A stretch of DNA of 64,000 nt from Argopecten irradians. Taxonomy: Eukaryota; Mollusca; Bivalvia; Pectinida; Pectinidae. Numbering within the stretch: the first letter of the stretch is position 1; every line of letters starts with the position of its first letter. Below the pieces are notes generated by a model. That model searched no databases. It saw only the letters and a program-made list of their open reading frames with translations, and had not been told where the DNA came from. Shown here piece after piece: positions 2,061 to 62,000 of the stretch. The DNA lies in NCBI RefSeq assembly GCF_041381155.1, contig NC_091134.1, positions 37,841,338 through 37,905,337 of the forward strand, read 5' to 3'. The position numbers and the translations under genes were made by a program.

Positions 2061-5000
2061 ATGTCAACAAATTATGATTCTTACTTAAAAACGTCTTTAT
2101 CGAAGGTAAGTGATTTCCGATTACAAATTTAGTTTTCGTTCAAACACTACATTGTTTATAAAAATTATTTTCGACGTAGATACATTTTCATGGAAATGAA
2201 AATTGACCCTGAAAATAGTTTCCTTTAATTTGAATATAAACACATCTCCCCTATTCAAGATTGGCGTTTCTTTAGACAAGATTTTGCTGTAAATGGGAAT
2301 TTTAGAATACATGCCAACTTTGCCAAATGACATTATTTATAAATGCATGTGTTATATGTTGTAAATTAAATAAATATTATATTCATGTTTATCAACTGCA
2401 TGTGTTGTTGTACATTAAAGATGCTCCACCGCCGACAGAGCTGAGCATAAATGATATTCATCATTTGAACAATAACTAGCGTTTAATCGTGTATATATAT
2501 GTCTAATTAACACAAAAAATAATATGAAATAATTTATTTTACCTTTGGCGCATGCGTAATCAGTATTTCATTCAATATAAGATATAGTGCCACAGAGTTT
2601 TTTTGGGATGCAATTAATTATTTTGCATATTTTTAATTTGAAGTAAAATTAGAAGCTCAAACTTTTCAATGGTGGTAATGGTGTAAAGTAAGTAACTTCT
2701 GTAACTGAAGAAAATACTAAGTCGTCTGTTCCTGCTTTTCATAGTGAAAAAATACTATTTGTCAGCGGTGGAGCATCTTTAATTAGCTTACATACATGTA
2801 CTTCTCAGTTATTGTAAACTTTTTTAAAATATTGAAAAAGAATATTTATTTTCTTTCAGTATAAATATGCAGATATTGCCAAAAGAGATGTTCTCAATGT
2901 ATTTCAACAGTTCAAAGATCTTCGTCCAGCATATGATTCCTATAGTAAGTGCATTAGTTCCTATAGTTGCGAACACCAGGGTTGGGGTCAATTACAAAGC
3001 AATGTAATTCATTACAATTACAATTACTTAGTCAAAACTCAATTACAATTACAATTACTCAATTTTGTAAATGTAATTAATTACAATTACATTCAAAAAC
3101 TAATTAATTACAATTACACATTACATTTTCTTAATATGTTTATTTTAATAACATATATTCACAATTGTATAGTCATACAATATGAAGCATTTATACATAT
3201 ATAAGTCACTATCAGTTAATTCTGATAGAACACATGCTTCACAAAATGTACATTTAAAATTTTTCAGACTCTGATGATGATAAAATGCAATAATATTCAA
3301 AAATATGAATATACTGAATACCATAGTTCTATTTCATATGTAGCAGCAAAAAAAACAGATTTGAACCTGCTGGTTTATACTGTATGATCATCTTATGGGA
3401 CTTTAAATGTTATCTCTTTCATATGAATATACACTGTAGTGTACATGTATAGTCATGTACTGAACTATGCATTGCCCAATATTGTTAGTTAAGATTATGA
3501 TTTGACTAACATTATGTTAGTGTCCTTAGGTAAACCCGTTGATTATAATAAGGCATGCATACACGTCCACAGCTCAGTCGTCTGTATTATATAACCTTGT
3601 TCAAAAGTAGACCATATGCATGTCAACAAGACAAAACCGTATTCGCCATAATTAATGCCCAGGGTGCCTAAATAATTGTAACAAATGGGGGCTTATTAAT
3701 GAACCAAAATGTAAATTTGGGACGAAAAAAGTCAGCCATATTTAAATCTTTCTGTACTCATGGCACATTAATCTGTTTCAGTAAACATGCATATACCCTT
3801 TATTACGGTATATCGTGATTCACATATAAAAGACTTGGCAAGTTTATGTAATATGGGACACAATGCTGATGTTAGAGGCACCGCATGTTGTAAATCATTG
3901 TCAAATCCATGGAAAGGGAGGGTTTATACAAGTCTTCTCCAAAAGAGGGGAGGGGGGCTCTTATTACGGCGAATATGGTATGTTCTTAAACAAAGAATTT
4001 GACCCTAATAAAGCAAACAGGACTCTAATGTGAACTTCCTGCATGAGCATTTGGTTATTATTATTATAAAAGTCAAATTTAACCAGAGATGGGAAATGAC
4101 ACTACCTGATTCATGCAGACTTGTGACTGGGACTCAAAACCTTGTGTCACCAAATTATTTGTTATGATTTCATTTAGACCAGGCCATTCTAAGTCATGTT
4201 AATATAAGCATACCGTATTCAACCCAATAAGTACCCTATAATGGCCCATATTAAATACAGACTGAAAATATGAAAACCTTCAGGTTTTTTATACAATATC
4301 TTTTTGCAAAGTTATTTAAATATATGGCTTAAAATTTGAGCAATAATTTTATGAATTGCTAGTCAAAATTTAGTTCTTTTAAGCACCCTCTTATTTGTTC
4401 ATTTTCAAGCATCAGGGCTCTTATTGGGTCGAATATGGTAATTGAGCTTCATAAATGATGATATTTGTAACATGATTATTTCACAATAAATGCATGGAAA
4501 AACTTGCTATATGGCATAATTAAATAATGTATTTACTTGCAGTTTTCAATGATGGATCGAAGAAAGAACTTTTGAATTTGGATGGAACTATTCCAGTGTC
4601 ATACAGAAGTAGGTATCATACAAACATAAACATTGAAACACTTTTTTCTAAACTGCCTCATTATCATTATATGACATACAACATCCCTGTATGTATATGT
4701 ATGTTTTACTTTTAACAGATGTGACATACAATATCCCTGTATCATATGTATGTTTTACTTTTAACAGATGTGACATACAATATCCCTGTATGTATATGTA
4801 TGTTTTACTTTTAGCAGATGTGACATACAATATCCCTGTATGTATATGTATGTTTTACTTTTAACAGATGTGACATACAACATCCCTGTATGTATATGTA
4901 TGTTTTACTTTTAACAGATGTGACATACAATATCCCTGTATGTATATGTATGTTTTACTTTTAACAGATGTGACATACAACATCCCTGTATGTATATGGA

Positions 5001-8000
5001 TCCTGGACACACATCCGTACAACCCTCCCATGGTGTTTGTCAAGCCTACCAGTAGTATGCAGATCAAACAAGGCCGCAATGTGGACGCTAACGGCAAAGT
5101 AGATCTGCCCTACGTCCGTGACTGGAGATATGTAAGGAGTAGATAAACAAAAAATGCAAACTTTCTTCATACTACTTTGCATGGACTTGAATCAAATTAC
5201 ATCTTATCTATTACTAATTTAATATATAATCATAAATCACGGTCGAATGCCTGGATATAAGGATTGCCCCGGTAAAATTAGGTTTCCAATGAACTTTTAT
5301 CAATATTTTAGTAGGTAGGCCTCAACCCAAGCTTATAAATGTATATAAGAATATAAAATGCAAACAGTACAATTTTCCACACTAGTTGTCAATATATTGT
5401 GATTTAATCCCGAGACTTTGTATTGATGGATGGGACCAAACAATATCCTAAATGTTTTAGAACTCAGAAGCTTAATTATTTATTAGTGTTTGTATTAAAA
5501 ATTAGGTCACAATACAGATAATTCATAAATATATATATGAAATCATGTGTTCCTTAATGCATGCTTAACAACTTAGCAATATTTGGTACATACCTACACT
5601 GTCTATATTTCAGCCTCAGTCGGACCTGCTTGGGTTGATCCAGATCCTTGTCATCGTGTTTAGTGATGATCCTCCGGTGTTCTCGAGAGCATCTACACAG
5701 AGATCACAACCCTACCAGCAGCCACAGGGCTCCAACCTGCCATACCCGGCACAAGGTATGATCGTGCCTAGATGAGTAGTGTGGGACTTGCTAAATATTT
5801 TTAGAACACTATATTGTTCTTTGTAAATGTGACTCATTAAGATTTGAAAATTAGTGTTCTTGACTTGCATTAAAAATTCTTTGTAAATTGCTGATATAAA
5901 CATATCTAAATTTATCTTATTTTATTTCTTATTCATTAACCCCTGAAATGTTTTAATGGACTGGTCTAATCTTTGATTTAGAAAAGACTTTTTGTGTCTT
6001 CAGGAATGAATAAAGTTATAGTGATATAACATATAATAACCATACCTGGTAGTGTGCTTTAGACAATTGACAAAATTTAATGTTCTAGCTATTAAATATA
6101 TGTACCTGTATAATGTCTAAGACTCTTCATATATGAGTATGGTGGATATGGATATCAAAGGGTATAACATAAACAAATGTCGTAAAAATACCAAGATTAT
6201 AGCATTTTATAGTTTGTTGTACAAAACAAAAAAGTCAGTAATAATTTTAGTGCAAGTGTACTCGTACTATTATTTTCCTTGTTGGGTGTAGAGTCTGTGT
6301 ACATCCGCTATGCGCAGATTCCAAGTCTAAAAGCGTTTAATAGATTTACATCTTATAGCCAATCTGTAACAGATTTCGCCATGATTTAGTGACACCAAAC
6401 TTTCAAAAACATATATTAAGAATAACATATATTAAGATATACTTGTCAGCGATAATCTACTATACATTAACAACAATGACATTACTAAGTGCTAAATGCA
6501 TTTGTTTTCTGTAAACTTCAAGCGGCGTATCATACAAACTCTTGCAACGTCACGATATTCTAAGCATCTGATCGACTTTGGAAACTTCTGGAGCAATACA
6601 ATGCAATTTAGGTTTATACAGTCAATAAGAGAAAGAGACGAAACAGATAACTTTTAGTACCCTCAACATATTTAATATCTTTCACATCGTCCTAGGTGTA
6701 CGTTGCATTATCGCTTACTAAACCCGGTGACCATAGACTGCATTTGCTGCAATTCTAATTAATATTTATGAAATTACACAGCTTTGTGAAAGAGAAACAG
6801 AATAAAAAACACATTATAAAATATCAGTCTGAGTGTCTTAGCTCTAGATCTAATGTACCCCAGAAAGGCGTTCAAGCATGTCACAGGTAAGTCACCTCGT
6901 GCACAGAAACTGGACTGTGTTCTAGCGGACGACTATTTTGAACAGGGAAACAAGTGTATCGCATCAATATCAACATGATTATAAACACACTTTTATGTAA
7001 CAAAGAACTTCAAAGTAATTTCACATTTAAAGTTCTGATGAAGTAAAGGAAAGTATTAATTACAATGCACAAAGGGCGTAAACCATCTCCTTGCAATAGT
7101 CCCAAGGATAATGAGCGAAAGTGCTAGGTACACTTGTTGCAGAGGATGATTTCATTGCGGAAATTAAGATTAAGAAGTATTTAGCGAGCACTTAATGTCT
7201 AACAGACATATTTCTAGTCTAAAGATTAAATCAAAACATCTGTTCATCAATTTCTGTTAATATATTTTGTTTAACTTAAAACTTGGAAGACTCTCAGTGT
7301 TTAATTCAAACTGTACATTGTTGGTCCCAACCAAGCTTTTCGCTATATATTTGCATACACTTTAACACCATGAATATTCTGATCATTCAGAGATTATTAA
7401 AAAGATGTTCAGGTTTAATTTTACCCTGGTCCTGCCAAATTTTAGTTAATGAGTTTCATATATAGATGTTAATGTTTTTGTGGATTGATTTATTTTAAGC
7501 CAAATGTTATAACTTCTGCTTATATACATGTATTACAAGTTTAACACAACTGGTTTGTTAATATTCAGGAGGATTTCAGATGCCAACCCCTGGTGGTACT
7601 GGATCCAACCCTCCAGCATACTCCCCCTATCCCTCGGGGGGTTATAACCAGCCTGGGGGTGGGTCCAACTTCAATTACCCAGGAAACTTCCAGCAGCCAC
7701 AGGGATTCCAAGGCTACCCACCTAGTACTGGAGGATATCCTCAAAGTGGTCAGCAGCAGTACCCATCACAGACACCGTACCCAGCGTACCCGTCACAGTC
7801 GCAGTACCCCACATCTACAGCCAGTACAGGTAAGACTCATAAAAACCTTAATGGTGTAGTACCCATCACAGACACCGTACCCAGCGTACCCGTCACAGTA
7901 CCCCACATCTACAGCCAGTACAGGTAAGACTCTCATAAAAACCTTAATGGTGTAGTACCCATCACAGACACCATACCCCGCGTACCCGTCACAGTCACAG

Positions 8001-11000
8001 TACCCCACATCTACAGCCAGTACAGGTAAGACTCTCATAAAAACCTTAATGGTGTAGTACCCATCACAGACACTGTACCCAGCGTACCCGTCACAGTCGC
8101 AGTACCTCACAGCTACAGCCAGTACAGGTAAAACTCATAAAAACCTTAATGGTGTAGTACCCATCACAGACACCGTACCCAGCGTACCCGTCACAGTCAC
8201 AGTACCTCACATCTACAGCCAGTACAGGTAAGACTCATAGAAACCTTAATGGTGTAGTACCCATCACAGACACCGTACCCCGAGTACCCGTCACAGTCAC
8301 AGTACCCCACATCTACAGCCAGTACAGGTAAGACTCATAAAAACCTTAATGGTGTAGTACCCATCACAGACACCGTACCCAGCGTACCCGTCACAGTCAC
8401 AGTACCCCACATCTACAGCCAGTACAGGTAAGACTCATAAAAACCTTAATGGTGTAGTACCCATCACAGACACCTACCCGAGTACCCATCACAGACACCG
8501 TACCCCGAGTACCCGTCACAGTCGCAGTACCCCACATCTACAGCGTGTACAGGTAAGACTCATAAAAACCTTAATGGTGTAGTACCCATCACAGACACTG
8601 TACCCAGCGTACCCGTCACAGTTACAGTACCCGACATCTACAGCCAGTACAGGTAAGACTCTCATAGAAACCTTAATGCTGTAGTATCATAAAGCATCAT
8701 TATATGTTTTCTTGTTGCACAAATTTGGCCGTTAGTTCTTATTGCACATGTGTAATTTGGGTGTGACACAAAGATGACCCTTACATCTTATTGCACATGT
8801 GTAATTTGGGTGTGACACAAAGGTGACCCTTACATCTTATAGCACATGTGTAATTTGGGTGTGACACAAAGATGACCCTTACATCTTATAGCACATGTGT
8901 AATTTGGGTGTGACACAAAGATGACCCTTACATCTTATAGCACATGTGTAATTTGGGTGTGACACAAAGGTGACCCTTACATCTTATTGCACATGTGTAA
9001 TTTGGGTTTGACACAAAGATGACCCTTACATCTTATAGCACATGTGTAATTTGGGTGTGACACAAAGGTGACCCTTACATCTTATAGCACATGTGTAATT
9101 TGGGTGTGACACAAAGATGACCCTTACATCTTATAGCACATGTGTAATTTGGGTGTGACACAAAGATGACCCTTACATCTTATTGCACATGTGTAATTTG
9201 GGTTTGACACAAAGATGACCCTTACATCTTATAGCACATGTGTAATTTGGGTGTGACACAAAGGTGACCCTTACATCTTATAGCACATGTGTAATTTGGG
9301 TGTGACACAAAGATGACCCTTACATCTTATAGCACATGTGTAATTTGGGTGTGACACAAAGATGACCCTTACATCTTATAGCACATGTGTAATTTGGGTG
9401 TGACACAAAGATGACCCTTACATCTTATTGCACATGTGTAATTTGGGTTTGACACAAAGATGACCCTTACATCTTATAGCACATGTGTAATTTGGGTGTG
9501 ACACAAAGGTGACCCTTACATCTTATAGCACATGTGTAATTTGGGTGTGACACAAAGATGACCCTTACATCTTATAGCACATGTGTGTAATTTGGGTGTG
9601 ACACAAAGATGACCCTTACATCTTATAGCACATGTGTAATTTGGGTGTGACACAAAGGTGACCCTTACATCTTATTGCACATGTGTAATTTGGGTTTGAC
9701 ACAAAGATGACCCTTACATCTTATAGCACATGTGTAATTTGGGTTTGACACAAAGGTGACCCTTACATCTTATTGCACATGTGTAATTTGGGTGTGACAC
9801 AAAGATGACCCTTACATCTTATAGCACATGTGTAATTTGGGTGTGACACAAAGGTGACCCTTACATCTTATTGCACATGTGTAATTTGGGTGTGACACAA
9901 AGATGACCCTTACATCTTATAGCACATGTGTAATTTGGGTTTGACACAAAGATGACCCTTACATCTTATAGCACATGTGTAATTTGGGTGTGACACAAAG
10001 GTGACCCTTACATCTTATTGCACATGTGTAATTTGGGTGTGACACAAAGATGACCCTTACATCTTATAGCACATGTGTAATTTGGGTGTGACACAAAGGT
10101 GACCCTTACATCTTATTGCACATGTGTAATTTGGGTTTGACACAAAGATGACTTTTGTTTTTCTCAAATCATTGGTTTGTAGGTTGGGTTAACAAAAGAT
10201 GATCCCTGTTTGAGTGTGTGTAATTTAATCTTTACTTAAACTTTGAAAAAGGGTTCACTTAGGTTTGATAGCTTTATTGTGACCAATCCTTTGGTATTCT
10301 AAGATATAATAATATATGATTAATTGTGACCAATCCTTTGGTATTCTAAGATATAATAATATATGATTAAATGAAATCAAAACTTAAGACCAAAATTGTA
10401 ATCAAGTTGATATAAACTGTGTATAACTTTATGACACTCAATCAATTATCTGTTATGAATAAGACACTAATTGTGTTAAATTTTATACTTTGACCTTTGT
10501 CCTCTAAAGTTCATGGCCTTGAATGTTATTCTTTATTGTTCATTGATTATAACTTCAGTGACAAGTGCTGGTCCAGGCGGCCCTGGGAATACCAACACTG
10601 TGACAGAGGAACACCTACGGATGTCACTTCTGTCGGCTGTCGAGGATAAAATGAAACGAAGGCTGAGGGAAATATTTGAACAAGCTCAGGTAAGAATCTA
10701 TTTTGGTATTTAAATTATTCTAGAATCGAAAAAGTACTATTTTGATTTTCTTTTGGTATATTCTAGATCTTACATTCCAGATCATGATCATGAAACACAC
10801 TTAAGTGTAAAAACAGTCTTAAGTTATAGATTAGCCAATCAAAAACGACTTTACAAAAGTTACACATATTTGGTTGGTTAAGTCAGAATTTAAGTCTAAA
10901 ACTGTTTCATAATCCTGCAGCCAGTTTAACGAAGTTAAGTGGGGTATTCTGGAATTGGGTTGTTTGTCTCTCTGTAGGCGAACTCTCAAACTCCTTAATA

Positions 11001-13677
11001 GATTTTGATAAAATTTGGTACACAGAACACTGACATAAAGGGGAGTTGAGTAAACTATATAGGGTTCTGCAATGTCCCTTATTGATGGAGTTATTACTAA
11101 ATTTGTGCAGCTAGGGGTATTAGTTGTCCACTCTGGCAACAGTTCTAGTTAAAAGTAGTTTTAATTTTGGATTGGCAAATCAGATCAAATATAAAGAGTT
11201 GAAGGACAGTCCTATATGGAACTGCAAAAGTCTGAATTTGAATTTCTGAGATGGGTTATTACAGTAATTATAACATTTAAATATAATATCAGAAATTCTA
11301 CACAACATGACACATTTGGGTTTAGATTCAACAGAATCGTCAGCTCTGCTTTCATGAATTGCCGTATAATTCATGGGCTATACATCTTATACATTGCTTT
11401 TGAACTTTGGTAGGCTGAAATGAATGTACTGCACAAAACACAGACTGATCTACTTCAAGGGAGACAAAAACTTGACAAAATGATGAAAGATCTTGATACA
11501 GAGAAGGTATGAAAATGTATTGTTTATTTGCATATTACAGAGTTACTGCCCCTGTGGGTTGGTACCGACTGTTGTGAGTCATGTTTTTATGAGTGTTAGG
11601 TCATATTTTTCTGAGAAAAAGAAATGATTTTTGTTCAAAAAGTAACGACATCACAATTGATACTTTCTATCAAGGGAACTGACTCTGTAATATGCAAAGA
11701 CAGAAAATGGATAGACAATAACCCTAATGTTGCTAAAAGTTTTAAGCCATGTGGTTCTGACAAAATTTCTGTTCCCATATTTCAATTATATATGGAAAGA
11801 CTTGTATTTGACTTAAGATCATCAAAAATTGAATAAGTGTTCTGTCTAAAAAAAATTTATTATAGTTTTTATTTTATCAACAATTTAATCTCTTCTGTTC
11901 ATTAAAAACTGTTGTTTCAATTTCAGAACGACATTGAGAATAACATCCAGATGCTAAAGGAAAAAGATCGTGAGGTGAAGGAAGCCCTGGAGAGGATGGG
12001 AAAACAGGATTCACTGAACATAGATGATGCAGTGGTCACAACAATGCCACTGTATAAACAGTAGGTTCTTTCTTACCGTTCACAGCCATTGCTTCCTAAA
12101 AAGGAATATTAGCAATCATGTGTGTTTTTTAGGTTATATCAAAATGAACAGTAATTGTCAGAATAAACTATTAAATTTCATCATGTAGTTTTCAACATAA
12201 TTTAATTTTCTCAAAAAAAATAAACTTCCTTCAATTTCTCAAACGTAATTAAATTCAAATAATCTTTTTGATAAGATTGGCCATATATCAGTGTTGTCTC
12301 CCCTTAACAAGGTAGTGAACTAGTTACAAACTTGGTATTAAATTGGGGTTATCTCCCTTTGACAGATTAGTGACCAATATATTTAGTCGTTATGTCTTAG
12401 TTATCTCCCCTTAAGAGTTACCTAAGTAAACTCGTAACATACATGGTCATTATATCCGGATTACATATGGTATCATATCATGTAAGTTTGATTGACTAAG
12501 TAAACGTTATCCTGCTGCCTGCAGAATTCTGGATGGTTTCACGGAAGTACTCAGGTTATCAAGGGTCCACTGTAAAACATAATATGCATTTATTGCCCCG
12601 GTGGCAGTGTGATATAAATCTTTTAACCCGAAGGTATAATATTTCTCGAGGGCTTGCCAGAGGGAAATATTACATCTGAGGGTAAATAAACTTTCATTTC
12701 ACACTGTTATACCGAGTACATAAATTGTTTATTATTCTGAAATTTCTGATTTCGCTTCTCTGGAAATAAATATCACTTACAGTATATTCACGAAGAATAA
12801 AAACTGTTGTTTCACGCTTCGTCTGTCATTGTTGTACAATCTGAAGAGGAGATGACTGTGTGTGAAAGACAAGCATTCACCATGGGGGCATATTTATTTC
12901 CTCCGAGGGAAATACAATGTTTTATTTCCTCCGAGGGAAATACAATGTTTAATTTCCCTGTCATGTGCTGTTTATCAGCTAATCACAGACAACATGAGGT
13001 ATAATATTAGTTATCTCCCCTTTAAAAGTTAGCCAACACATCATATATTAGCTCATTATACCTGGGTTTACTTCATAGTATAGATGAATTATTTCAGACA
13101 GGATATAATTATATCTGGATCATTTCACCTTACAGGTTAGTGAACTCTTTTGCTGAGGAACAAGCAATAGAAGATGCATTGTTTTATCTTGGAGATGCAC
13201 TGCGCAAAGATGTCATTGATATTGATGTCTTCCTTAAGGTCAGTTCCATACTACACCTCTTCATGTGTTAAAGACCACAGTGTCATGGATTCTTGTGTGT
13301 TTGTTTTCTAAACCGTTGTCACATAATATTTGGTTTTAGACTTCGAAGAATTCAATGAATTTTATTGAACATGTTTTGTAAAACTTAGTAATTCAATCCA
13401 CAGTTCTTCTTGCTACATTCCAATAAGTTATAAAATGATTTGTATTCCAAAATGCATATGTATGAAGAGTTAAAACTTTGTCAATCTTCCATAGCAATCA
13501 TCTTTAATGATCTATAAAATACAAATTTCGGGTTCCATTAATAATTTTGTATTTCTGTTGCAATAATGTTATTTTTTATTCTTACAGCAAGTACGAGAGC
13601 TGTCCAGAAAACAGTTCATGTTGCGCGCATTGATCACCAAATGTCGAGACAAGGCAGGATTGCCTCCCTTGGCCTGA
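2061..13677 (+). CDS. TSG101: TSG101, ESCRT-I subunit (11 coding exons, complete)
   Basis: Exons: 2061-2105, 2860-2944, 4543-4608, 4968-5131, 5614-5755, 7569-7829, 10559-10689, 11414-11506, 11927-12060, 13136-13238, 13588-13677 (TGA). All junctions are GT-AG and keep frame, giving 437 aa against 390 in human. TSG101 is the ESCRT-I subunit that binds ubiquitin and P(T/S)AP late-domain motifs, for endosomal sorting, cytokinetic abscission and virus budding. Residues 1-150 are the UEV domain: TYNIP, LDTHPYNPP and KPTSSM are visible, and the E2 catalytic Cys is replaced by Tyr114 (LPY), as the family expects. Residues about 150-260 are a P/Q/G/Y-rich linker, longer than in human, with a PPAY motif at 182-185. 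Residues 265-360 are coiled coil, and 372-437 the steadiness box (EEQAIEDALFYLGDALR). The PTAP that precedes LYKQ in human is TTMP here. The start has no competing upstream Met nearby; identity is very secure, exon 7's exact acceptor slightly less so. Confidence 0.96.
2419..2778. mobile_element. MITE with ~20-bp terminal inverted repeats, TSG101 intron 1
   Basis: The left end reads AGATGCTCCACCGCCGACA and the right end is its reverse complement with one or two mismatches. Both ends are flanked by TTAA (2415-2418 and 2779-2782). The 360-bp interior is AT-rich and non-coding. TTAA flanks suggest piggyBac-type mobilisation; because the inverted repeat extends through the flank, a TA duplication (Tc1/mariner) with a TIR starting AAGATG fits equally well. 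No transposase is present, so the element is non-autonomous. Confidence 0.8.
2987..3140. repeat. AATTAC-rich repeat, possible hAT-like element end
   Basis: A CAGGGTTGGGGTC start is followed by many overlapping copies of CAATTACAATTAC and TAATTAATTACAATTAC. The CAGGGTTGGGG start resembles a hAT-type terminus, but I found no matching inverted end downstream, so this may be a solo end or a simple repeat in TSG101 intron 2. Confidence 0.4.
3637..3978. mobile_element. TA-flanked MITE, TSG101 intron 2, copy 1
   Basis: The left end CCGTATTCGCCATAATTAA pairs with the right end TTATTACGGCGAATATGG, giving inverted repeats of about 18-20 bp around 342 bp. TA follows the right end; the left flank is AA, probably mutated. 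The termini are related to those of the element at 4213-4438. There is no coding potential. Probably Tc1/mariner-related and non-autonomous. Confidence 0.7.
4213..4438. mobile_element. TA-flanked MITE, TSG101 intron 2, copy 2
   Basis: The left end CCGTATTCAACCCAATAAG and right end CTTATTGGGTCGAATATGG are inverted repeats with two mismatches. TA flanks both sides (4211-4212 and 4439-4440), as expected of a Tc1/mariner-type target duplication. The interior is 226 bp, AT-rich and non-coding. It shares terminal sequence with the 3637-3978 element, so one family has inserted twice within 600 bp. Confidence 0.8.
4671..4998 (+). repeat. 50-bp minisatellite spanning the TSG101 exon 4 acceptor
   Basis: Six TTTTA(A/G)CAG|ATGTGACATACAA copies have AG at 4718, 4767, 4817, 4867, 4917 and 4967, so the spacing is 49-50 bp. 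A partial copy starts at 4671. Each unit holds the pyrimidine-rich acceptor, about 20 bases equal to the start of exon 4, then GTATGTATATGTATG. Only the last copy (4967) continues into the conserved UEV coding sequence. Use of an upstream acceptor reaches an in-frame TAA within the next unit, so upstream sites would be unproductive. Confidence 0.93.
7757..8690 (+). repeat. ~100-bp minisatellite spanning the TSG101 exon 6 donor
   Basis: Nine units start at about 7761, 7861, 7957, 8059, 8159, 8259, 8359, 8484 and 8584. Each contains a coding-like stretch (ACCCATCACAGACACCGTAC ... GCCAGTACAG), a donor GTAAGACT (GTAAAACT in unit 4), then about 30 bp of CATAAAAACCTTAATGGTGTAGT. Donors lie at 7830, 7924, 8026, 8128, 8228, 8328, 8428, 8553 and 8653. 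The first unit is the 3' part of exon 6 (YPSQTPYPAYPSQSQYPTS). Read-through into unit 2 shifts frame and ends at the TAA inside its donor (7925). Confidence 0.93.
8735..10152 (+). repeat. 49-bp tandem array, ~29 copies, TSG101 intron 6
   Basis: The unit is built on GCACATGTGTAATTTGGG, then TGTGACACAAAGATGACCC and TTACATCTTAT. Period 49 bp; units are nearly identical. Variants at three positions (TTGCAC/TAGCAC, GTGTGAC/GTTTGAC, GATGACC/GGTGACC) recur in blocks of four to five units, indicating higher-order structure. One unit has an extra GT at about 9588. Each unit carries the palindrome CACATGTG. It is intronic and non-coding. Confidence 0.95.
10276..10369 (+). repeat. 47-bp direct duplication
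   Basis: Two adjacent identical copies (10276-10322 and 10323-10369) begin ATTGTGACCAATCCTTTGG and end AATATATGATTA. They lie in TSG101 intron 6 between the 49-bp array and exon 7. Identity suggests a recent duplication. Confidence 0.9.
12290..13020. repeat. Dispersed-repeat cluster in TSG101 intron 9
   Basis: Degenerate units with TTATCTCCCCTTAA occur at about 12295, 12350, 12408 and 13010. Within the cluster is an imperfect foldback at 12606-12712, whose left arm (TGTGATATAAATC ... ATAATATTTCTCGAGGGC) pairs with GCTTGCCAGAGGGAAATATT ... TTTCACAC. A 28-bp unit (TTTATTTCCTCCGAGGGAAA...) is also duplicated exactly at 12893-12920 and 12921-12948. No coding potential; probably fragments of non-autonomous elements. 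Confidence 0.6.
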
Positions 13678-15850: not shown

Positions 15851-15854
15851 TTAC

Positions 15855-21152: not shown

Positions 21153-21299
21153 TGTTTGACACAGCTATCTTAACTGAATAATTCCCAATGAAACAAACGA
21201 GCACTCTAGATCATCTCGGGTTATATAGGCGCATCGAATGTCAAAACCTTACATCAAAATTCCACTTCCGGTCACTGTTGTCCGAGGAATTTGTAATCT

Positions 21300-33000: not shown

Positions 33001-36000
33001 TCCTGAGAGGCTTAAGAAGTTAAAACTCCCAACCCTGAGTTACAGACGTGTACGAGGTGACATGATAGAAACCTACAAGGGCAGTTACAGGGAAATACGA
33101 CAAAGGAGCAACCCAGTTCATAAGGATGTGGTCCGACACATCAGAGAGGTCTAGCACTAGGACAAACTCGCTGAAAATATTCCCCCAGCATACTAAAACA
33201 TTGATCAGGAAGAACTCATTCTCCGTTAGGATTGCTTCAATATGGAACAACCTACCAGACCATGTCGTTACATCTAAGACATTGGACACCTTCAAAAACA
33301 GATTGGACAATCACTGGAACGAACAGGAAATCAAATACAATAACTATAAAGAGAATATCAGCTAGGAAGTGACTATAATCATAATATGTAACTAAAAATA
33401 TTACGAAGAGAATTACTTAAGAATTAAGAATCATTAAGAAACAATTCAGATTTATAAGTGGAAATTTGAACTTGCAAGACATGCTTTTTATTTGTACATA
33501 CACTACTACAAAGAGTCAAGTGGAACATTTTAATCATGTTAAAGACCTAAGTGATTTTAACCATTGCGTATGCACAACCCTGAACGCATTGGTGAAGAAA
33601 GTGTCAAGGTGGTCAATAGGGCCCGAATTTTACATTTTTTGTCACTTGCTAAAAATAGCAAGTGCCCTAAATTTTTACTTGCTAAAATATATTTTTACTT
33701 ATAATTAATATCCGTATTCAAATTACAGTTTTGTTATATATAAAATCCTTTATTTTTGCATGATGATGTGAGGTATATATAAGTACATAATGTATATCAA
33801 CAACATTATTGTAAGAACTGGGCCCCCATATTTTCCATTAAAACAATTTTTCACCATCATTATGTCATTTTTACAGTTGTCCCTGATAAAAACCACTTGC
33901 TGAAATAAGCAAGTGCATATTTTTTCCACTTGCTATTCTGGTATATCTACTTGCAAAAAAGCAAGTAAAACAGCCTGAAATTCGAGCCCTAGTCAAAAAG
34001 CTTACAGCTTAAACAGACCGAGGATCAGAAAAAGAAAAGAAACAATAAAATAGCTATCATTAACTAAGGGTGAAACGACACACTTTAATCATGGTTCGGT
34101 AGAAACATAAAAATAATAATGTGGTGATTATGCTAGATTTCTTATCTACCTTATATAGCAAAACACACATCTTTTATCATATAATTTCCACATCATTTTT
34201 TTTAAATGCTGGATTTCAAATTTTGTAACATGATAATGAATGTAATTAATGTATGTATCTTTATTTTGTTTAGTCCTCCTTTGTGGGTGCCATAGCTATT
34301 GGTGATCTTGTCAAAAGCACACTGGGACCAAAAGGAATGGTAAGGACCATGTGGATTTAAAGACTGTAGAGCTTAAATGTGTAATTTGCAAACAAAGAAG
34401 CCATCAAATATAAGCAAATATAGTTTGGTTGGTCCTGTGTACAGGGCTTTTACTTGGTACATGTTTTTTTTTTAAATAAATAGTGACAAGTGTTTTACAT
34501 TTCCGAAATCAAGTAAAATTCTAAAGATATTTATTTGTGAAATCAAGTAAAGTCTACATTTAATTTTTTTCTTTTTTAACCAGGACAAAATCCTTCAGGG
34601 CGGCGATTCCATCTCTGTAACAAATGACGGAGCCACAATACTGAAATCTATTGGAATAGACAATCCTGCAGCTAAAGTATTAGTTGGTAAGATATGATTG
34701 AGATTCTATCTTGGTAAAAATGACGGGAGTCACGATACTGAAATCTACTGAAATAGACAATCTGCAGCTAAAGTATTAGTCTGTAAGATATGATTCTATC
34801 TTGGTAACAAATGACAGAGCCACAATACAGAGATTTATTGGAAAAGACAATCATACAGTTTAAGTATTAGTCGGTATTGCAAGTCCTTAAACCTGTCATG
34901 TTGTTATAGTGAATCATCAATGCATATGTAATTTCAGAGCATATCATTGATTCCTGTCATAAACCGATGATGTTTGTTTAATGGATATCTATCTGTACGT
35001 TCTTTCTTGCTTAATTTTTCCAGTATGTATGACATTTTATATTACCACAGTAAAATTATTCTGGAGACTTTCTTTCTTGTAGACATCTCCAGAGTACAGG
35101 ATGATGAGGTCGGTGATGGAACAACATCTGTGGTAGTGCTGGCATGTGAACTCCTCAAGGTAAACATTCTATCTTTAAATAAAAACCACCATATATAATT
35201 AAATTCAAGTGTAGATTGAGTGTGAATAGCCAAATTGTGCAATACATTATTTTCAATAGCTGACTGAGATCTAAATAGTAACGACATAATTATCTATTAG
35301 TTTAACATTGCTGTGGTCTCGGGAATCGGAAACTTTAAATTTTATAGATGAAATCCATTCTGTGTTACTCATCTGAAATGTATTTATTTGTTGGTAGGAA
35401 GCGGAAGTGCTAGTCTCACAGAGAATACACCCACAGACCATCATCACAGGATGGAGAAAGGCCACCGACGTAGCCAGACAAGCTCTCACAGAATTCGCTA
35501 GAGACCACGGGTAAGTACCCTACAGCTTTATACCTTATATTAATCATCTTTCTGTGTCCATTATGAAAATAAGTCTCAATTTGATGTACTGTGTTTAAGT
35601 GTTATGTCTATTCTCTTGTAGTCACCTGAAATTAAAGACCCAATAAGTTGTCAGGAAAAGTGAGGGACATTTAATTAATGGTAGATCTTTCACAGCGTTG
35701 TTGCACCAAATACCACAGATTGATTTGCTAAATATATTTTTAAAATGCTTCAATATTTATGGTAATAATAAAGATTTAAATTTTAGGTAGGTTAAACTAA
35801 GGCCTTAAAAGTGTAATGGGTGCTTGTAGAGACTGGTGTATGTCAAATATTGTATAACAGTAATTTGTTGTCATAGCACTATGACTTCAGTATCATTTAG
35901 TCGATCAGAACTTTGAAACAAAATTTCTGTTGTATGCTTAACAATGAATTATATACCAATTTCTTACTACAGAAATGACCCAGAAAAATTCAGGAATGAC

Positions 36001-39000
36001 TTGTTGAACATAGCTAGGACAACACTTAGCTCTAAAATCCTCACACAGTACAAAGATTACTTCTCAAACATGTGTGTTGATGCTGTTCTAAGGCTTAAGG
36101 TGAGTTTTTGATTTGTTACTTAAACATGTATTCAAGCATGATTTTTTATACTGGATATTCTCAATTTATTTATATTTTTACAGTTCTGAATAATGTTTCG
36201 ATTAGCCAAAAAAAACTTAGCTCCGAGATATGTAAATGCAGAATTATGTGAAATATTAATGCATTGAAAATAATTTCTTTGCTTGGAAAACAAATTCACA
36301 AATTAGATTTTATGTGTAATTTATTAATGTAGAAATTGAAACTGAAATAAATCCCTACATAAGGAAATCTCATCAAAACATTTTATTGGAGACCTTTCAT
36401 GCATCACCAATTACTACATAAAAGCATAAGTGCTAGACCAAATGTTCAAACATCTCCAAAAGTCTGATGATAGCTTAATCAAAATAGAAGCCAGTGTGCA
36501 GCAGAAATGATTGGACTGAGGCATTTTCTATTCTTTCTTCAAAACCTATTATTTCTGTTCCTCCACAGGGCAGCGGTAATCTAGATGCTATTCAGATCAT
36601 CAAGAAGCTTGGAGGTGGACTGTCAGATTCATACCTGGATGAAGGTTGGTTACTTGTTATATTACAGTTCATTAGTTTTACACAAATTATGTGGGAATGC
36701 AGTAAAGGACCGATTGTATGGAAAACAGTGGTCTGATTTTGTGAAAGATAGAATTGATATAATTGTATACAAGAGTTATGGGCCTTTGACCAGATTGCTT
36801 ATAAAATGTGTTTCTGTTTTATGTTTACAGGCTTCCTTTTAGATAAGAAAATCGGAGTGAACCAGCCAAAGAGGATAGAAAATGCCAAGATTCTGATTGC
36901 TAATACACCTATGGATACTGATAAAATCAAGGTAAGATAATCACTTTGGATTGTATACAAGTTATTTCATTCTCCATCATTAAATAAAATAGTTCTTGCT
37001 ATCCATGACTACCCCATCTAGATTCACCAGAACTTGTTTAGCTCATTAATTATTAATGTGATTCTCACTAACCTCAAATCCGTGTGCTTTCGACCCCAGT
37101 GACTTAAATATATGGTCATTGTTCTTTGAATAGGTGTTTGGTACAAAGGTAAAAGTAGATGCCGTTTCCAAGGTAGCAGAACTTGAAGTTGCTGAGAGAG
37201 AAAAGATGAGAGACAAAGTTAACAAGATCCTGAAACACGAGTGTAATGTATTCATCAACAGGTAAAACACTAATTTATTAAAATTTTCAAATTATTTGGG
37301 ACTCATTTTCTCAGTTAGTGGTAAAGGGACATTGTTATCTCTCATTTGGAAGAAATTTGTTAGTTGGAAGGAAAGTTTTAATTGGAAACTGTATTTTTTT
37401 GGAAATTTGTTGTTTAAAAATTTGAAATAATTTTCATTGGGAATGGGGCCCAATTATTGGCCCCAAAATATTCCTAGAAAATTCCTGAAATATGTATTGG
37501 AGCTGTCAATGCCATAATATAGTTATGCAGTAATAGTGGTATAATTAAAAATAACAATTGAAGAATTTGTTTAATTTTATACGATAAGTGAAATGTATAA
37601 AAATTCAACTTTGTGTAAGTCACAAACTGTAGCTGTGGTGTATCTTTTATGAAAGGGTTTTTGAATTAATGGTATTATGTATTTCAGACAACTTATCTAC
37701 AACTACCCCGAGCAGCTGTTTGCGGATGCTGGTGTAATGGCCATTGAGCACGCTGACTTTGATGGTATTGAAAGATTAGCTCTTGTTACAGGTGAGGAAA
37801 TTTTGCTAGACAGCTTATGGTAAGAAATTGTGTCGGGAGAAGATTCTCAAATTGAAATGACTTCTGTAACGATTTTGCTATTGATACCGACTGCTAATTT
37901 CTATTTGCAATACCTTTTATACAGAACTTCTTCTATACTACTGAAGTGATTTCAACGAAAATTGGCGGCTTTACAATCCTTATACAGTTAAGATATGTGT
38001 TCTATATTGGAACAAAAAGCTCCTATGTGTAATCTATATTGAAATAAATACCTCCACCTTTTAGGCTTTTTCAGAGTTATGCCTCTTTCTACGAAGCCCC
38101 CCCCCCCCCCCCCCCCCAAAAATAAAACGAAATATGATTAACAGCTACTCTTCCTAAAATACTGGGGGAATTTCAATGAAACTTGTATAAGTTGGCCTCC
38201 TGAACGACAGTTGTTTCTGGTATCAACACCAACATCTTAGCTAATGAATCATTGTTGCTAGTTTGCTTCACTTTCATGTTGATATAGAAATAATAACCTT
38301 CAAGTTCAATACTTAAAATAGTGATGATAGAAATTGTGGAGTATTGCATCATATTCTACTGTGTGATGTCTATCCTTATCAGTGGTTCATACTTATTTTC
38401 ATGAAAACCTTGTTTGTTCAACAGGTGGTGAGATTGTGTCCACCTTTGACTGTCCAGAGCTCGTTAAATTAGGTAGCTGTGACCTGATGAATGAGGTCAT
38501 GATTGGAGAGGACAAACTCATCAAATTCTCAGGTAATTGTTGACCTCGCAATGTTAATGATGCCAAAATCTGTGAATTTGTTGTCAGAACTTTATAACCT
38601 TTGTTTAATTCTTTAACCCTCAGAAATTACCATAAACACAGGGAAAAAAATTGCTATAATTGTAATTATACCTGAAGTCAACTTAGATAGGTAAAGTAGC
38701 GTTATGATAAAATATTGTAATATGGAAATAAAAACTCATGATTTTTAAATGAGTGAAAATTTGATTTGTACTACAGCTCCTAAATCCAAAAACTTGTAAC
38801 CCTTTACCTCATACAAACCTCTTACCTGATATGTTGCCAGGTGTAGCTTTGGGAGAAGCCTGTACCGTTGTGTTGAGGGGAGCCACTAAACAGATCTTGG
38901 ACGAAGCTGAACGGTCAATTCACGATGCCCTTTGTGTTCTCACCCAGACTGTGAAAGAAACCAAGACTGTGTTCGGTGGAGGTTAGTTATCTCTATCAAT

Positions 39001-40316
39001 CTCTTTATGAAAATAAGATCATCATTGTTGTACATTGCTGTTGTGGTAGAATTCCAAAACTTATCAGTACATTGTTGAAAAAATAACCATTAATTTTGTA
39101 TTTGTTATGAACATTACAGGTAGCTCAGAGATGTTGATGGCTGATGCTGTTTCTAGACTCGCCACCAAGACACCAGGCAAGGAAGCTGTAGCAATGGAGG
39201 CATATGCCAAGGCCCTGAGGAATGTAAGTCATGACAAGGAACAGCAGGTAACACTAGGGAAAGAATCGTGAAATTAGGCCAACAAGTCATACCTGTTTCA
39301 TTCAGTAACGTGTCAGATTTCTCTAATTTGTGTAACGAAAATTATATGTTTTATAATTTAGTTCGGTTTGATTAGTTTAACGTGCTAACCAGGGTCATTT
39401 AAGGATGTGCCATGTTAAAATGGTGAAGGAAAGCCGGAGAACCCAGAAAAAAAACACCCACCAGCCAGTACCTGGCAACTGCTCCACATGGGATCTCAGA
39501 TGTGAAGGGCTTGTGGTAATATATCAACATTTTAACCACTCAGCCAATGTTTTATCAGTTAACATTTGGAAGCAAGATGATATGCTACAATATTAACCAG
39601 GACCAAAGACAAATTAAATCAATTTTGTTTTTCACAGTTACCAACCACCATAGCAGACAACGGAGGTTTTGACAGTGCACAAATTGTTTCGGAGCTGCGA
39701 GCCCTTCATGCTGAAGGAAAAAATACCATGGGCATTAGTAAGTTTTACCATTTGTCTTTTTATGGATTTAAACTTTTAAAAGATTACTCTTTTAAAAATA
39801 CACAATGATTTTAATTGCAAAATTTTCTCCTCTTTACATTGTTATTAGCGGTGTAACAAAAATTGTACTATTGATATAGTTTCTTGCAAATATATGCCTC
39901 TCAATTTAATCAAATGGTGAGAATCACTGATGTTACCCCAAGCTATCAATAATTTCAATAATCAGATATTTTTGGTGTAATTTGAACTAAAATGAAGAAC
40001 TCTCAGAGGTTTGATATGGTAACAGACAAACAGTCCCAAAATATGTTATTTTGGGATGTGAAGTAATAATAAAGAAATTTAATGCAATTTTGAAATGCTC
40101 TCTTTAAAGCAAAAGTGATCAGAGTAATGTTTTGTGTGTTTAGATATGGAGCTTGGAGAGGTGGCTGATATGGAAAAGACTGGCATCACAGAGTCATTCC
40201 AAGTAAAACGCCAGGTAGTGATGAGCGCAGCAGAGGCAGCCGAAATGATCCTACGTGTCGATGATATCCTCAAAGCCACACCTCGACCACGACAACGTGA
40301 TGACCGATGCCATTAA
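30041..40316 (+). CDS. CCT2: CCT2, T-complex protein 1 subunit beta (16 exons, complete)
   Basis: Exons: 30041-30043 (ATG only), 30561-30629, 34274-34339, 34584-34686, 35083-35159, 35398-35510, 35973-36099, 36569-36644, 36831-36931, 37134-37261, 37688-37791, 38425-38532, 38841-38981, 39120-39223, 39638-39737, 40144-40316 (TAA). All junctions are GT-AG and in frame; 530 aa against 535 in human. The product is one of eight paralogous subunits of the TRiC/CCT ring, the ATP-driven cytosolic folding machine for actin, tubulin and WD proteins. The N-terminus ([20 protein letters not shown]) is beta-subunit specific. Nucleotide-binding signatures TLGPKGMDKIL and VGDGTTS (residues 91-96 GDGTTS) are intact, as are [17 protein letters not shown] in the apical domain, [14 protein letters not shown] and VFGGGSSEML. 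The first exon carries only the start codon; the next in-frame Met lies far inside the conserved fold, which supports this start. No disrupting change seen. Confidence 0.97.
30361..30383 (+). other. G-run tract in CCT2 intron 1, quadruplex-prone
   Basis: CGGAGGGAGGGGGAGGGGGG contains four or more G-triplets separated by single A residues on the transcribed (RNA-sense) strand, 320 bp after the CCT2 start codon. Such a tract can form a G-quadruplex in DNA or pre-mRNA; a role is not shown. Confidence 0.6.
30785..33470 (+). mobile_element. 5'-truncated non-LTR retrotransposon (LINE) in CCT2 intron 2
   Basis: Encodes the C-terminal half of an APE-type endonuclease ([31 protein letters not shown]) from about 30800. 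A linker ([17 protein letters not shown]) and reverse transcriptase follow: [45 protein letters not shown] and the catalytic FADD. The C-terminal [16 protein letters not shown] stretch ends near 33365. Motifs place it in the CR1/Rex1-Jockey part of the APE LINEs. It lacks any ORF1 and the first half of the endonuclease. One in-frame TGA (31937-31939) and one frame change near 33130-33150 interrupt it, so it cannot move by itself. It lies in the same orientation as CCT2. The two main frames (382 and 404 codons) are otherwise open, so the insertion is fairly young. The 3' boundary (about 33470) and target duplication are not resolved. Confidence 0.92.
33617..33991. mobile_element. hAT-like MITE with subterminal hairpins, CCT2 intron 2
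   Basis: The left end TAGGGCCCGAATTTTA pairs with the right end TGAAATTCGAGCCCTA (inverted, two mismatches). Just inside both ends lie hairpins of one motif: CACTTGCTA/TAGCAAGTG at 33642-33663, CACTTGCT/AGCAAGTG near 33895-33917, and ACTTGC/GCAAGT near 33951-33967. Repeated subterminal motifs are typical of hAT transposase binding sites. No coding capacity. A clear 8-bp target duplication was not found. Confidence 0.7.
34617..34878 (+). repeat. Decayed tandem copies of CCT2 exon 4 end and donor
   Basis: The last ~70 nt of exon 4 plus its donor and ~27 nt of intron (34617-34713) are followed by two degenerate copies starting at 34714 and 34804 (periods 97 and 90). Shared blocks include AATGACGG(G)AG, ATACTGAAATCTA, AATAGACAAT, GCAGCTAAAGTATTAGT and GTAAGATATGATT. 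Small indels and substitutions make both copies non-coding, and the donor is kept in copy 2 (CTGTAAGATA) but lost in copy 3 (CGGTATTGC). They lie wholly in intron 4. Confidence 0.92.
38097..38117 (+). repeat. C21 homopolymer
   Basis: An uninterrupted run of 21 C in CCT2 intron 11, followed by AAAAATAAAA. Long C/G homopolymers are uncommon in AT-rich genomes and the exact length may be a sequencing artefact. Confidence 0.9.
39365..39548 (-). mobile_element. tRNA-derived SINE, CCT2 intron 14
   Basis: On the - strand the head reads TTGGCTGAGTGGTTAAAAT (A-box-like, near 39548-39530), then a B-box-like GAGATCCCATGTGG (about 39498-39485). A shared GCAGTTGCCAGG follows, then the core TTTTTCTGGGTTCTCCGGCT (about 39450-39431). 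The tail TGACCCTGGTTAGCACGTTA leads to AACTAATCAAACC. Same layout as the copy at 61.1-61.3 kb. Antisense to CCT2. Confidence 0.8.
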
Positions 40317-41690: not shown

Positions 41691-41859
41691 TTATAGTATA
41701 TAGTATAAAGGTGTATAATCCATACATAGTAAAGAGAGAAAGGTGAAAAGAACTACACATATAAGGTAAAGTACTAAAGGCAACTATAGTAAAGAGGAAA
41801 CATCAAGGAAGAGCCAAACAGAGGAGAAATAGATATATTAGTATGTAGTAAGAAGATGA

Positions 41860-50040: not shown

Positions 50041-50603
50041 ATCTGATTGTGTCTATATCAGTCATTTCAGACGTCGTTGAATCCTATTAACAATGTAAAA
50101 AAAACAACGCGTATCCTTACACGTACAGTGTGTATACACGACCGCAACGCTAGTCCAGGGGTGTAGAGATTCAGGTGATCGGAACCCCTAGAGTATCGTG
50201 TTGTCAGTTCGGTGGACGTGGCCTTCACTGATCTTACAAAGAATACATACAGAAGATAAGCAATTGCCACTTAATACGGCTACTCATTATTCACTCATGA
50301 CATGAAATATGTATATATGTAACAAGAGGTCACAAAAATAATAATAAAGAAGGAAATAATGGATGGACACATGCACAGCAATCAATGGAGATTCGAGATA
50401 CATTGAAACACAATAATTCCACTTTTACTTATATAATAAGAAGCTTAATTACTCTCTGAAAAAAGCGACTCATTTTACTTATAAAGCTGTATTTCATTTA
50501 GTGCACCTGGTTCGACCGGTTCTCGTAATTTTACATAACGTGCTCAATCAATTTTAAGTGACAAACATATATAATTACTGCAGTTAATCCGATAACTACA
50601 GTA
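50041..50603. other. Unique spacer between satellites
   Basis: About 560 bp separates the 36-bp and 20-bp satellites. No gene or RNA recognised. Confidence 0.5.
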
Positions 50604-51600
50604 TACTAAGTCGTTATAAAAATATCACTAAGTCGCTATAACGAGATACTAAGTCGTTATAACGAGATAACTAAGTCTTTAGAACGATATACCAAGTCGT
50701 TATAACAATATCATTAAGTCGTTATAACGAGATACTAAGTCGTTATAACGAGATACTAAGTAGTTATAACGAGATAACTAAGTCGTTATAACGAGATACT
50801 AAGTAGTTATAACAATATCATTAAGTCGTTATGGCGCGTTATGGCGAGATACTAAGTCGTTATAACGAGATACTAAGTCGTTATAACGAGATACTAAGTC
50901 GCTATAACGAGATACTAAGTCGTTATAACGAGATAATTAAGTCGTTATAACGAGATACTAAGTCGTTATAACGAGATAATTAAGTAGCTATAACGAGATA
51001 CTAAGTCGCTATAACGAGATACTAAGTCGCTATAACGAGATACTAAGTCGTTATAACGAGATAATTAAGTCGTTATAACGAGATACTAAGTCGTTATAAC
51101 GAGATACTAAATAGTTATAACGAGATAACTAAGTCGTTATAACGAGATACTAAGTCGTTATAACGAGATAACTAAGTCGTTATAACGAGATAACTTAGTC
51201 GTTATAACGAGATAATTAAGTCGCTATAACGAGATACTAAGTCGTTATAACGAGATACTAAGTCGTTATAACGAGATAATAAGTCGTTATAACGAGATAA
51301 CTAAGTCGTTATAACGAGATAATTAAGTCGCTATAACGAGATACTAAGTCATTATAACGAGATACGAAGTCGTTATAACGAGATAATTAAGTCGTTATAA
51401 CGAGATAATTAAGTCGCTATAACGGGATACTAAGTCGTTATAACGAGAAACTAAGTCGTTATAACGAGATACGAAGTCGTTATAATGAGATACTAAGTCG
51501 TTGTAATGAGATACTAAGTCGTTATAACGAGATAATTAAGTCGTTATAACGAGATACTAAGTCGTTATAACGAGATAACTTAATCGTTATAACGAGATAA
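50604..51600 (+). repeat. 20-21-bp palindromic satellite, ~48 copies
   Basis: The unit is AAGTCGTTATAACGAGATAC(T), alternating with AAGTCGTTATAACGAGATAA(TT). Each unit centres on the perfect 12-bp palindrome TCGTTATAACGA (variant TCGCTATAACGA). Spacing is 19-22 bp, close to two helical turns. The array is sharply bounded and non-coding, with no unique spacers. Confidence 0.95.
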
Positions 51601-59000: not shown

Positions 59001-62000
59001 GTCACCTACCTATAATTATTGTCATTATATTGAGGTGGGAATTTTGAATGCACCAAGACCTAAGGATATTTTTTGGCCTCCCCTCTAACTCCCCAACCCC
59101 ATAGCTCTTCGCAATGGTGAATCAGAATAACTATCTAGATGTTTAAAATACACTAGGCAATATGGTTCTAGGATCACAAGGTATTGTTTTGATGTAGTTA
59201 TGTTGTACTATGTAAGTGTTTATTTTTGAAACTTAATTTGGGTAATTTAAACTTATATTTAACATGTAGTTTATGATAGAAGATAACCATGCTCTATGAT
59301 GTGGTATATGATTTAAGAGTGTGAAAGGTTCAGGAATGCTATATGTATATTGCAATTGGTGTCAGGGGCATTAATCTGTTTACACAGAAGCTGGCTATCA
59401 TACCATGTTTATTGTTATATAGCCCTCAGTCTCTAAATGTGGATTAGCGCTTGATTCTACATTGAATTGGTACATGTAGATTTCCAATCAAAGAAAATTA
59501 TTATCAATAAATTCAATACTAAATTACTATTGTGATTTTCTTTTTGAACTTAGAACTTTCTGAAGGGATAATTTTCTTTATGATATATCAATTGCATTTA
59601 CATGTAGAATTTACAGAAAACCATTCTGATTGATTCAATAACTATTTAGAAAAGAAAAACCCTGAAGATTAGTTAGTTATGAAATAAATCTGAATAAATC
59701 CTGGCTGGAGCCATTGGTACGATATATATGATATGATATGCTAACCAGACACGGTCAGTGTTTTTATCTCACACCAGCTGTGTGTGTGTATCACCTGTTT
59801 CTGGAATTCAAGGTTCAACTAAAGCTACTACACATAAACATAGGGATCTTTGATAATCAGAGATAGGTCTCTGGTAAAAAAACCATCTACCATACGATCA
59901 CACATCTCATCCCTTGGAGTGTATAGGACTTACCGAGGCCTTTACACATGTAATAGACCTGTGATGTTGTAGGCTAAATCTGATACTGTTTCACAATTTT
60001 CATTAAAATGAGGAGAAATAGAATTTTAAAATGTTTAAATTTTATTCCAATTTACTTTTGTTTTCAGTGATATCGATGACTAGCTAGTGCTAGATAAAGG
60101 TAAACACACAATATTTAAATTTAACTGCTTAAAGTTTATCTTGTGAGACTCAAAATGATTATGATTAAAAACATGTGTACACATGTAATGACAGAAATGA
60201 TGATAAAATAGTGTTTTATCATGCACAGGGGCAGCCAGTGTGTAGTCATAAAAGGCCCAACAGGCCGTAGTGGGCAACACTCAATAGGCCATATTAGCTA
60301 GCTAGGTTTCCTTGTGATTCTGCTAATAGATTTTGCTGTATAACATAAATTTTCACTTCTTTGTAGTATGGATTCTAATTGACAAAATATTTAGTGATAT
60401 TTTCAGAATGTCAGAGTTGTGAAACTTTAAATAATGAACCATAATAAGGGCGTGTCTGTATACGGTCAATTAGCTGAGCCTTTATTTAAGGTTATATACA
60501 TGGTATTTATTAGAGTTTGCATATTTGGTGAAAGTATTGTCAGGGAGTATGGTATGCAGCTTTTACTGTATAGGACATTCCATTGTATATAGGTTGGAAT
60601 CATGCTCCTGATTTATATACAGACTTTCTCTTTCTTTTACAGACCAGCCGGCCCATGTGTCCCAGGTCAATGTGGAGTACCCGATGAACTCCCCATCTCC
60701 AGCAGTGGGTAAGTCTAAACCTGATATATTCTAGGGTAGATAAGTCTGGACATATTCTATATATAGGGTATAGGTAAGTCTGAACATATCCTATATATAG
60801 GATATAGATAGTGTAGATAGGGTGGATTAGATTTACAGCCATTCAACGCCCTTGTGAAATCTGGGTGTAGGAGAGAGTAGGGGCAGACACTATTTGTTTA
60901 CAATGTGATGTAATTGGCTAAACATTTCAGTATTCTACTGGTGTTCATGATCATGTAGTGTGTCGGAAACAAAACCATGGTAGGACTAGAATATATTTCA
61001 CAGAAATTTTATAAGTGAACTAATTCAGACGGAGCATCTAAGATAAAATTTATTTGTATTTTTTCCTAACCATGAAAGAGCAGAGGCTTATGGTGTTACA
61101 CTCACATTTCCACAAGCCTTCTATCTCAGTATCATGAGTTTGAATCCCATGTGAGGCAGTTGCCAGGTAACTGACGACTATAGTGGTCGTTGATTTTTCT
61201 CCAGGTACTCCAGCTTTCCTTAACCACTAAAGCTAGCACATTATTGGTTGAGGATGACTGTTAATGGAACGTTTAACCAATCAAACTTATAGTGTAGTTA
61301 TAGCCATGTTTGTCCCATTTCTTCCTATACCATCCCTTATAATTCCATAACATCTCAAACCATTCCACTTTGTTTTGGTCTTACAAACATTTCTATAATT
61401 AGTTACAATTCAGTTTGAATTATGAATGGTGGTGAGAGCAAGGGACAATTCCTATTTCCCTTAAATTATTTTGGAGGCGCTTTCCATCCTTCTTTTCTCT
61501 AACATGTATGTTTGTTCTTCAATAAACTATTAGGTCATGAATCTAAAGTAGGTCAAGGTGACCTAATTAAAAAAAAACCTCATTTGATTGTCTGTGATTG
61601 AACTTTCCTTTACTCAAGCGTAACAATAATTTTACAGTCGTCAATATAACAGGCAAGTAGCAATGAATATGGAAATGATAACTTTAGATGAATTGCCATG
61701 AATAAAATCATGTCATCAACAATTAATCTTCCACAGGCAATAATGGTCACAAATGTTTTCTGATTATGCTAGTCAGTACATAAACAGCATGCACTCTCTG
61801 TGTGTATGGTAAACATGACGTAGTCTAGCTTTAGACATTTTAATCCATCTGAATGTTTACATGCAATACGTTGTCACCAGCGTCGGGGAGGGACAATATG
61901 GGGGAATAAAAGACTAGCTATATACCTTTTTGTATGTGTATGTGCCTGTTTCCAATTTTATCACAATTTTATTCCATGAAATTCAAAATGATTTTAATTC

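Follow-up and report, generated by a model that had tools for sequence, protein, structure and literature searches.

Three splice junctions in a 64,000-nucleotide stretch of the genome of the bivalve Argopecten irradians (NCBI RefSeq assembly GCF_041381155.1, contig NC_091134.1, positions 37,841,338 to 37,905,337 of the forward strand; hereafter the window) lie within tandem arrays that carry further copies of the junction itself on the intron side. An earlier note on this DNA had claimed four such junction repeats. The claim holds for the exon 4 acceptor and exon 6 donor of TSG101 and for the exon 4 donor of CCT2 (T-complex protein 1 subunit beta), but not for the exon 2 donor of the right-hand gene. 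The pattern recurs elsewhere in this genome (845.8 Mb, 1508 contigs), at ~2% of the junctions sampled, and is explained by known processes. The arrays probably result from local tandem duplication that occurs almost anywhere and is tolerated at exon-intron borders because splicing continues at the site closest to the exon.

Junction arrays in the window and in sampled genes

Tandem arrays were defined as calls of Tandem Repeats Finder (TRF) with a unit of ≥10 bp. In the window, these merged into 20 arrays, which occupy 24% of all bases and 12.3% of intron bases. The window genes contain 27 introns, in agreement with the earlier count of roughly 27, and 53 junctions. Their identity and the AT-rich composition of the introns are in keeping with a mollusc. 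Proteins obtained from the joined exons align to solved chains over residues 6-145 of TSG101 and residues 2-526 of CCT2.

In all three confirmed arrays (Table 1), the duplicated unit spans exon and intron bases at the splice site, with 31, 72 and 82 exon bases inside the arrays at TSG101 exon 4, TSG101 exon 6 and CCT2 exon 4, respectively. Each array reaches one end of the intron, the opposite intron end lies outside it, and the coding splice site is the copy adjoining the exon. At TSG101 exon 4, the unit consists of ~19 bases of the intron end, including the AG, followed by the exon bases, and the alignment to solved TSG101 runs across this junction without a break. At TSG101 exon 6, where the exon bases belong to the first copy, the donor motifs start at positions 7825, 7919, 8021, 8123, 8223, 8323, 8423, 8548 and 8648. 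At CCT2 exon 4, both intronic copies have decayed, with donor scores of 0.5 and 4.5 versus 8.9 for the coding donor, and the alignment to solved CCT2 is again unbroken at the junction. Introner-like elements would be dispersed over many introns; a search for further copies of the arrays in TSG101 and CCT2 elsewhere in the genome detected none among the best 40 of 371 and the best 40 of 2457 candidates, with simple repeats skipped.

An independent sample of junctions was drawn from the same genome, with exon positions obtained by searching for members of four protein families: chaperonins, myosin heads, dynein AAA_6 domains and kinesins. It used 40 of the 59 matches found for PF00118, 40 of 82 for PF00063, 72 of 89 for PF12774 and 31 of 130 for PF00225, those of the last two families being picked from dense clusters, and comprised 183 anchored exons within 242 kb. 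Once contig C451 (a near-duplicate of contig C4), two long single-exon matches and the window had been excluded, 295 junctions exceeded a splice-score threshold that had been trained on the window's own sites. Nine of the 295 junctions lay inside arrays, and inspection by eye reduced these to six clear cases and one weak case (2.0-2.4%; 95% interval for 7/295, 1.0-4.8%). The clear cases belong to five genes, encoding a chaperonin on C10 (affected twice), a myosin on C5, dyneins on C14 and C7, and a kinesin on C2, and in each the unit spans exon and intron bases as in the window (Table 1; copy numbers are given as ranges where two scripts matched copies differently). The rate in the window (3/53) does not differ significantly from that in the sample (Fisher P 0.18).

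Several candidates were rejected. At C13:20961061, the junction had been called wrongly; visual inspection put the end of the exon ~95 bp earlier, which leaves the array inside the intron. C1:64666937 consists of two 21-bp copies lying mostly within an exon. A kinesin donor array at C3:47909018 (69-bp unit) was not counted because it begins exactly at the donor and contains no exon bases. The exon 2 donor of the right-hand gene in the window was also rejected: the TRF array there is wholly intronic, and the donor-side sequence taken for its first copy aligns to it only at chance level. The score of this donor-side piece against the array was reached by 174 of 2000 shuffles, and by 708 of 2000 when its donor-like first eight bases were kept.

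The window contains other repeats as well. Four very large arrays lie beyond the annotated exons, at 15858-18401, 42061-44535, 44867-50009 and 50603-51599, with main units near 85, 52, 36 and 21 bp, respectively. Intron 2 of CCT2 contains, at ~30800-33400, sequence recognized by eye as resembling the reverse transcriptase of a long interspersed nuclear element (LINE). Bases 33000-33406 have 100% matches at ≥10 other places in the genome, which suggests that this LINE-like sequence belongs to a young family. A dispersed repeat of ~970 bp in TSG101 intron 5 (~6239-7218) shows 81-90% identity to dozens of matches listed, the best 40 of 2457 first-look candidates having been scored for the whole 5-kb query. 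In addition, a single open frame of 365 amino acids is present on the minus strand at 20055-21152.

Table 1. Gene models and tandem arrays of the window, and junction arrays of the genome sample (C followed by a number, contig)
Feature	Position	Strand	Description
TSG101 gene	2061..13677	+	11 exons, from start to stop codon; joined coding sequence open
TSG101 intron 3 / exon 4 array	4672..4998	+	50-bp unit, 6 acceptor copies, all intact; TRF 6.6 copies, 96% matches
TSG101 exon 4	4968..5131	+	begins at last (exon-proximal) acceptor copy; open 11-exon coding sequence
TSG101 exon 6	7569..7829	+	ends at first (exon-proximal) donor copy; basis, open coding sequence only
TSG101 exon 6 / intron 6 array	7758..8686	+	100-bp unit, 9 donor copies (TRF)
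TSG101 intron 6 array	8737..10152	+	49-bp unit, 29 copies; wholly intronic comparison case, no junction touched
CCT2 gene	30041..40315	+	16-exon model
CCT2 exon 4	34584..34686	+	ends at first donor copy; 16-exon model
CCT2 exon 4 / intron 4 array	34605..34876	+	97-bp unit, 3 copies; TRF 2.9 copies, 81% matches
Right-hand gene, exons 1 and 2	53066-53105 and 60643-60708	+	exon model
Right-hand gene intronic array	60737..60810	+	34-bp unit, 2.2 copies (TRF); 29 bp downstream of exon 2 end (60708)
Myosin acceptor array	C5:36365997-36367526		60-bp unit, at least 24-26 copies
Dynein acceptor array	C14		53-bp unit, 11-12 copies
Kinesin acceptor array	C2		31-bp unit, at least 8-9 copies
Dynein donor array	C7		22-bp unit, 74-77 copies; donor reassigned by eye to 43142632, one copy further upstream
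Chaperonin donor arrays, two donors of one gene	C10, one at C10:8996203		53- and 40-bp units, ~4 copies each
Weak junction case	C2:23209014		only 10 exon bases in array

Array placement relative to chance

The earlier note had regarded its junction repeats as far more numerous than expected at random, a view that does not hold for the window. The three window junctions inside arrays (3/53) compare with 12.3% of intron bases, and when the arrays were shuffled by position, 11.7 junctions inside arrays (standard deviation 6.8) were expected (P of three or more, 0.94), as were 3.7 arrays over a junction, again with three seen (P of three or more, 0.78). This shuffling ignores selection. The comparison of splice sites with intron positions that the note had proposed was made on the 295 sampled junctions and gave the same direction. 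Nearby intron control points fell inside arrays in 2958 of 43,808 cases (6.75%; the sampled non-exon sequence may contain unannotated exons and intergenic flanks), more often than the junctions did, both in the raw count of nine and after inspection (7/295; binomial P 0.0006 for seven). A bias of arrays towards splice sites therefore fails in this comparison.

A stricter null model counts a placement only if a single repeat unit comes to lie over a junction. Under this model, the sample shows a junction excess of ~2.5-fold, which is possible but borderline; it is weak and could be due to chance. The mutational bias towards exon-intron borders that the note had offered as one of two readings is thus not established: arrays cover junctions less often than they cover intron points in both the window and the sample, and what speaks for it is the weak excess under the one-unit null.

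Tolerated duplication as the probable explanation, and its competitors

The explanation that we consider quite probable is that this genome frequently undergoes local head-to-tail tandem duplication, by slippage or unequal exchange, with little preference for position. Copies arising inside exons would mostly be purged by selection. Units straddling a border would be tolerated because the exon keeps an entire junction at its edge, which is the first copy in a donor array and the last in an acceptor array. If the exon-proximal copy is the one spliced, the transcript would be unchanged, and the surplus copies would become intron sequence, free to grow to tens of copies or to decay. We infer both the use of the exon-proximal copy in RNA and the mechanism of duplication.

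The other reading offered in the note, namely that selection tolerates such duplications when one splice-site copy stays functional, fits these data: junction-crossing arrays recur in other genes, and fully exonic arrays are scarce. Only one was seen in 32.0 kb of sampled exon, besides the mostly exonic C1 case, versus 8.4 expected at the intron rate, a scarcity to be read with the caveat that the exons were found by family match, which would overlook any exon disrupted by an array. Where a junction allowed a check, an insertion-free protein is obtained only when the exon-proximal copy is used. For the dynein genes on C7 and C14 and the chaperonin junction at C10:8996203, inspection by eye showed that the proximal copy joins the neighbouring exon in frame and in the order expected for the family. 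In all nine arrays (three in the window and six in the sample), the score of the coding site is at least the median of the extra copies, with a score whose training sites include the window's own. The intactness of the exon-proximal site is partly a matter of construction, because junctions were chosen by splice score.

The consequences of using another copy were examined for 134 alternative sites in the nine arrays. An open frame is kept by 36 of these, all in three arrays: 10 of 23 in the myosin gene on C5, as open in-frame insertions, 2 of 7 in the kinesin gene on C2 and 24 of 73 in the dynein gene on C7. None of the alternative sites in the remaining six arrays preserves an open frame, and the unit is divisible by three in only one of the nine. 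Since most alternatives break the frame, errors in splicing would usually disrupt the protein, and the proximal site would have to be chosen accurately.

Several observations weigh against this explanation, and some of them concern the placement of the arrays. Under the one-unit null, 0.49 junction arrays were expected in the window and three were seen (P 0.014), in a window chosen post hoc for these cases. In the sample, six or seven were seen against an expectation of 2.62 (P 0.051 or 0.018), or of 3.09 when the rule was a 5-bp overlap (P 0.093 or 0.038). Array ends facing an exon are also denser near borders, with 16 in 35.3 kb within 60 bp of a border, one of them from the dropped C1 case, versus 48 in 193 kb beyond. 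Between -60 and +60, taken in four bins of 30 bp, their density is 0.23, 0.68, 0.34 and 0.57 per kb, compared with 0.21-0.29 beyond; the bin from -30 to 0 holds six ends, again including that of C1. Because the one-unit null is exceeded and array ends are denser near borders, uniform placement of arrays may be too simple. Other such observations concern the splice sites. The donor of TSG101 exon 6 is supported by its open frame alone, as the alignments to solved structures do not reach it. The extra splice sites are mostly intact: GT or AG is kept in 147 of 148 cores, coding sites included, a count that covers only cores with ≤3 mismatches, more decayed copies being present in CCT2 and in the chaperonin gene on C10. 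Furthermore, some copies in the kinesin array outscore the coding site (13.8 versus 11.6). Intact and high-scoring extra sites would invite mis-splicing if a rule of proximity were weak.

The excess under the one-unit null and the density of array ends are what would be expected if a mutational process favoured exon-intron borders, for example through replication or transcription trouble at the change in base composition. The statistics are, however, borderline, with few events, two of which fall in one gene, and junctions are covered by arrays less often than intron points are. A simple effect of GC content is not seen either: outside exons, the median GC content is 0.319 in non-junction arrays versus 0.325 in non-array noncoding sequence, so that array birth driven by GC is unsupported. 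We regard a border-directed process as unlikely. If borders were a real hotspot of array birth, at ~2-3 times the intron rate, about one in 40-50 splice sites would carry extra copies of itself, with up to tens of near-identical competitors in essential genes, a proposition to which we likewise give little credence.

The almost complete preservation of the splice cores and the frame-preserving alternatives in the myosin, kinesin and dynein C7 arrays could also indicate that extra copies are put to use, as mini-exons or as alternative splice sites of either kind, so that the protein varies or less transcript is made. Against this stand the six arrays in which no alternative keeps the frame, the rarity of units that are multiples of three and the conserved proteins, which lack insertions at the alignable junctions, and such a use of the copies is very unlikely. 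Errors of assembly are more improbable still: the stacking of one sequence would not give CCT2 copies that match at only 81%, the pattern occurs at several separate loci, and no supporting sign was found, though the assembly of tandem arrays is difficult and the copy numbers may be inaccurate.

The note had also suggested that the copying is ongoing. Copy identity differs between arrays, from 81% in CCT2 to 96% in the TSG101 acceptor array (TRF). Two near-identical chaperonin gene segments on C4, each ~99.7% identical to one 1.8-kb stretch of contig C451, share an intronic array with a 36-bp unit, which counts 6.1 copies at C4:11543040-11543264 and 7.1 at C4:11562807-11563067. This difference in copy number supports an ongoing process only in general, because the C4 array is not a junction array.

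Comparison with known systems

In form, the arrays resemble minisatellites or variable number tandem repeats (VNTRs) in having head-to-tail units of roughly 10-100 bp, as called by TRF. A 31-bp VNTR in human CBS is a minisatellite with repeated donor sites that reportedly spans an exon-intron border; it concerns a single gene, and differences between its alleles are known. Among the top-ranked papers of literature searches (at most 10 to 15 per search), no title concerned junction-crossing arrays in molluscs, from which nothing wider is concluded. The counts of six or seven among 295 sampled junctions suggest that junction arrays are fairly frequent in the present genome. Where conserved motor and chaperonin genes carry tens of near-identical donors or acceptors, nature has set up an experiment on the choice among equal sites, and near-constant use of the exon-proximal copy would provide direct support for proximity or exon definition.

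Single junction-crossing duplications are already known. In the human CBS variant 844ins68 (PMC2630376), splicing removes a 68-bp duplicate of an intron/exon junction and yields a normal mRNA. That paper terms both sites 'donor', and a title among its references concerns 3' splice site selection. The variant resembles the present arrays in being a tandem copy that spans an intron/exon junction, but it consists of one extra copy in one gene, whereas here 3 to ~77 copies are found in several genes. In the potato RNA-dependent RNA polymerase gene (RdRp; PMC4974935), a tandem duplication across an intron-exon boundary made a new intron. There, too, the unit crosses the border and inherits the splicing signals; unlike that case, in which an intron was gained, an existing intron has been lengthened here. 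Intron gain by tandem duplication of AGGT (the Rogers model), which would place the new intron between two copies of the duplicated segment, does not describe the window arrays either, since each array is located at one end of its intron and does not extend to the other. Finally, the internal tandem repeats of human segmental duplications (PMC2812944) are similar in that expansion of a minisatellite alters gene structure, and differ in that they occur in paralogues within segmental duplications.

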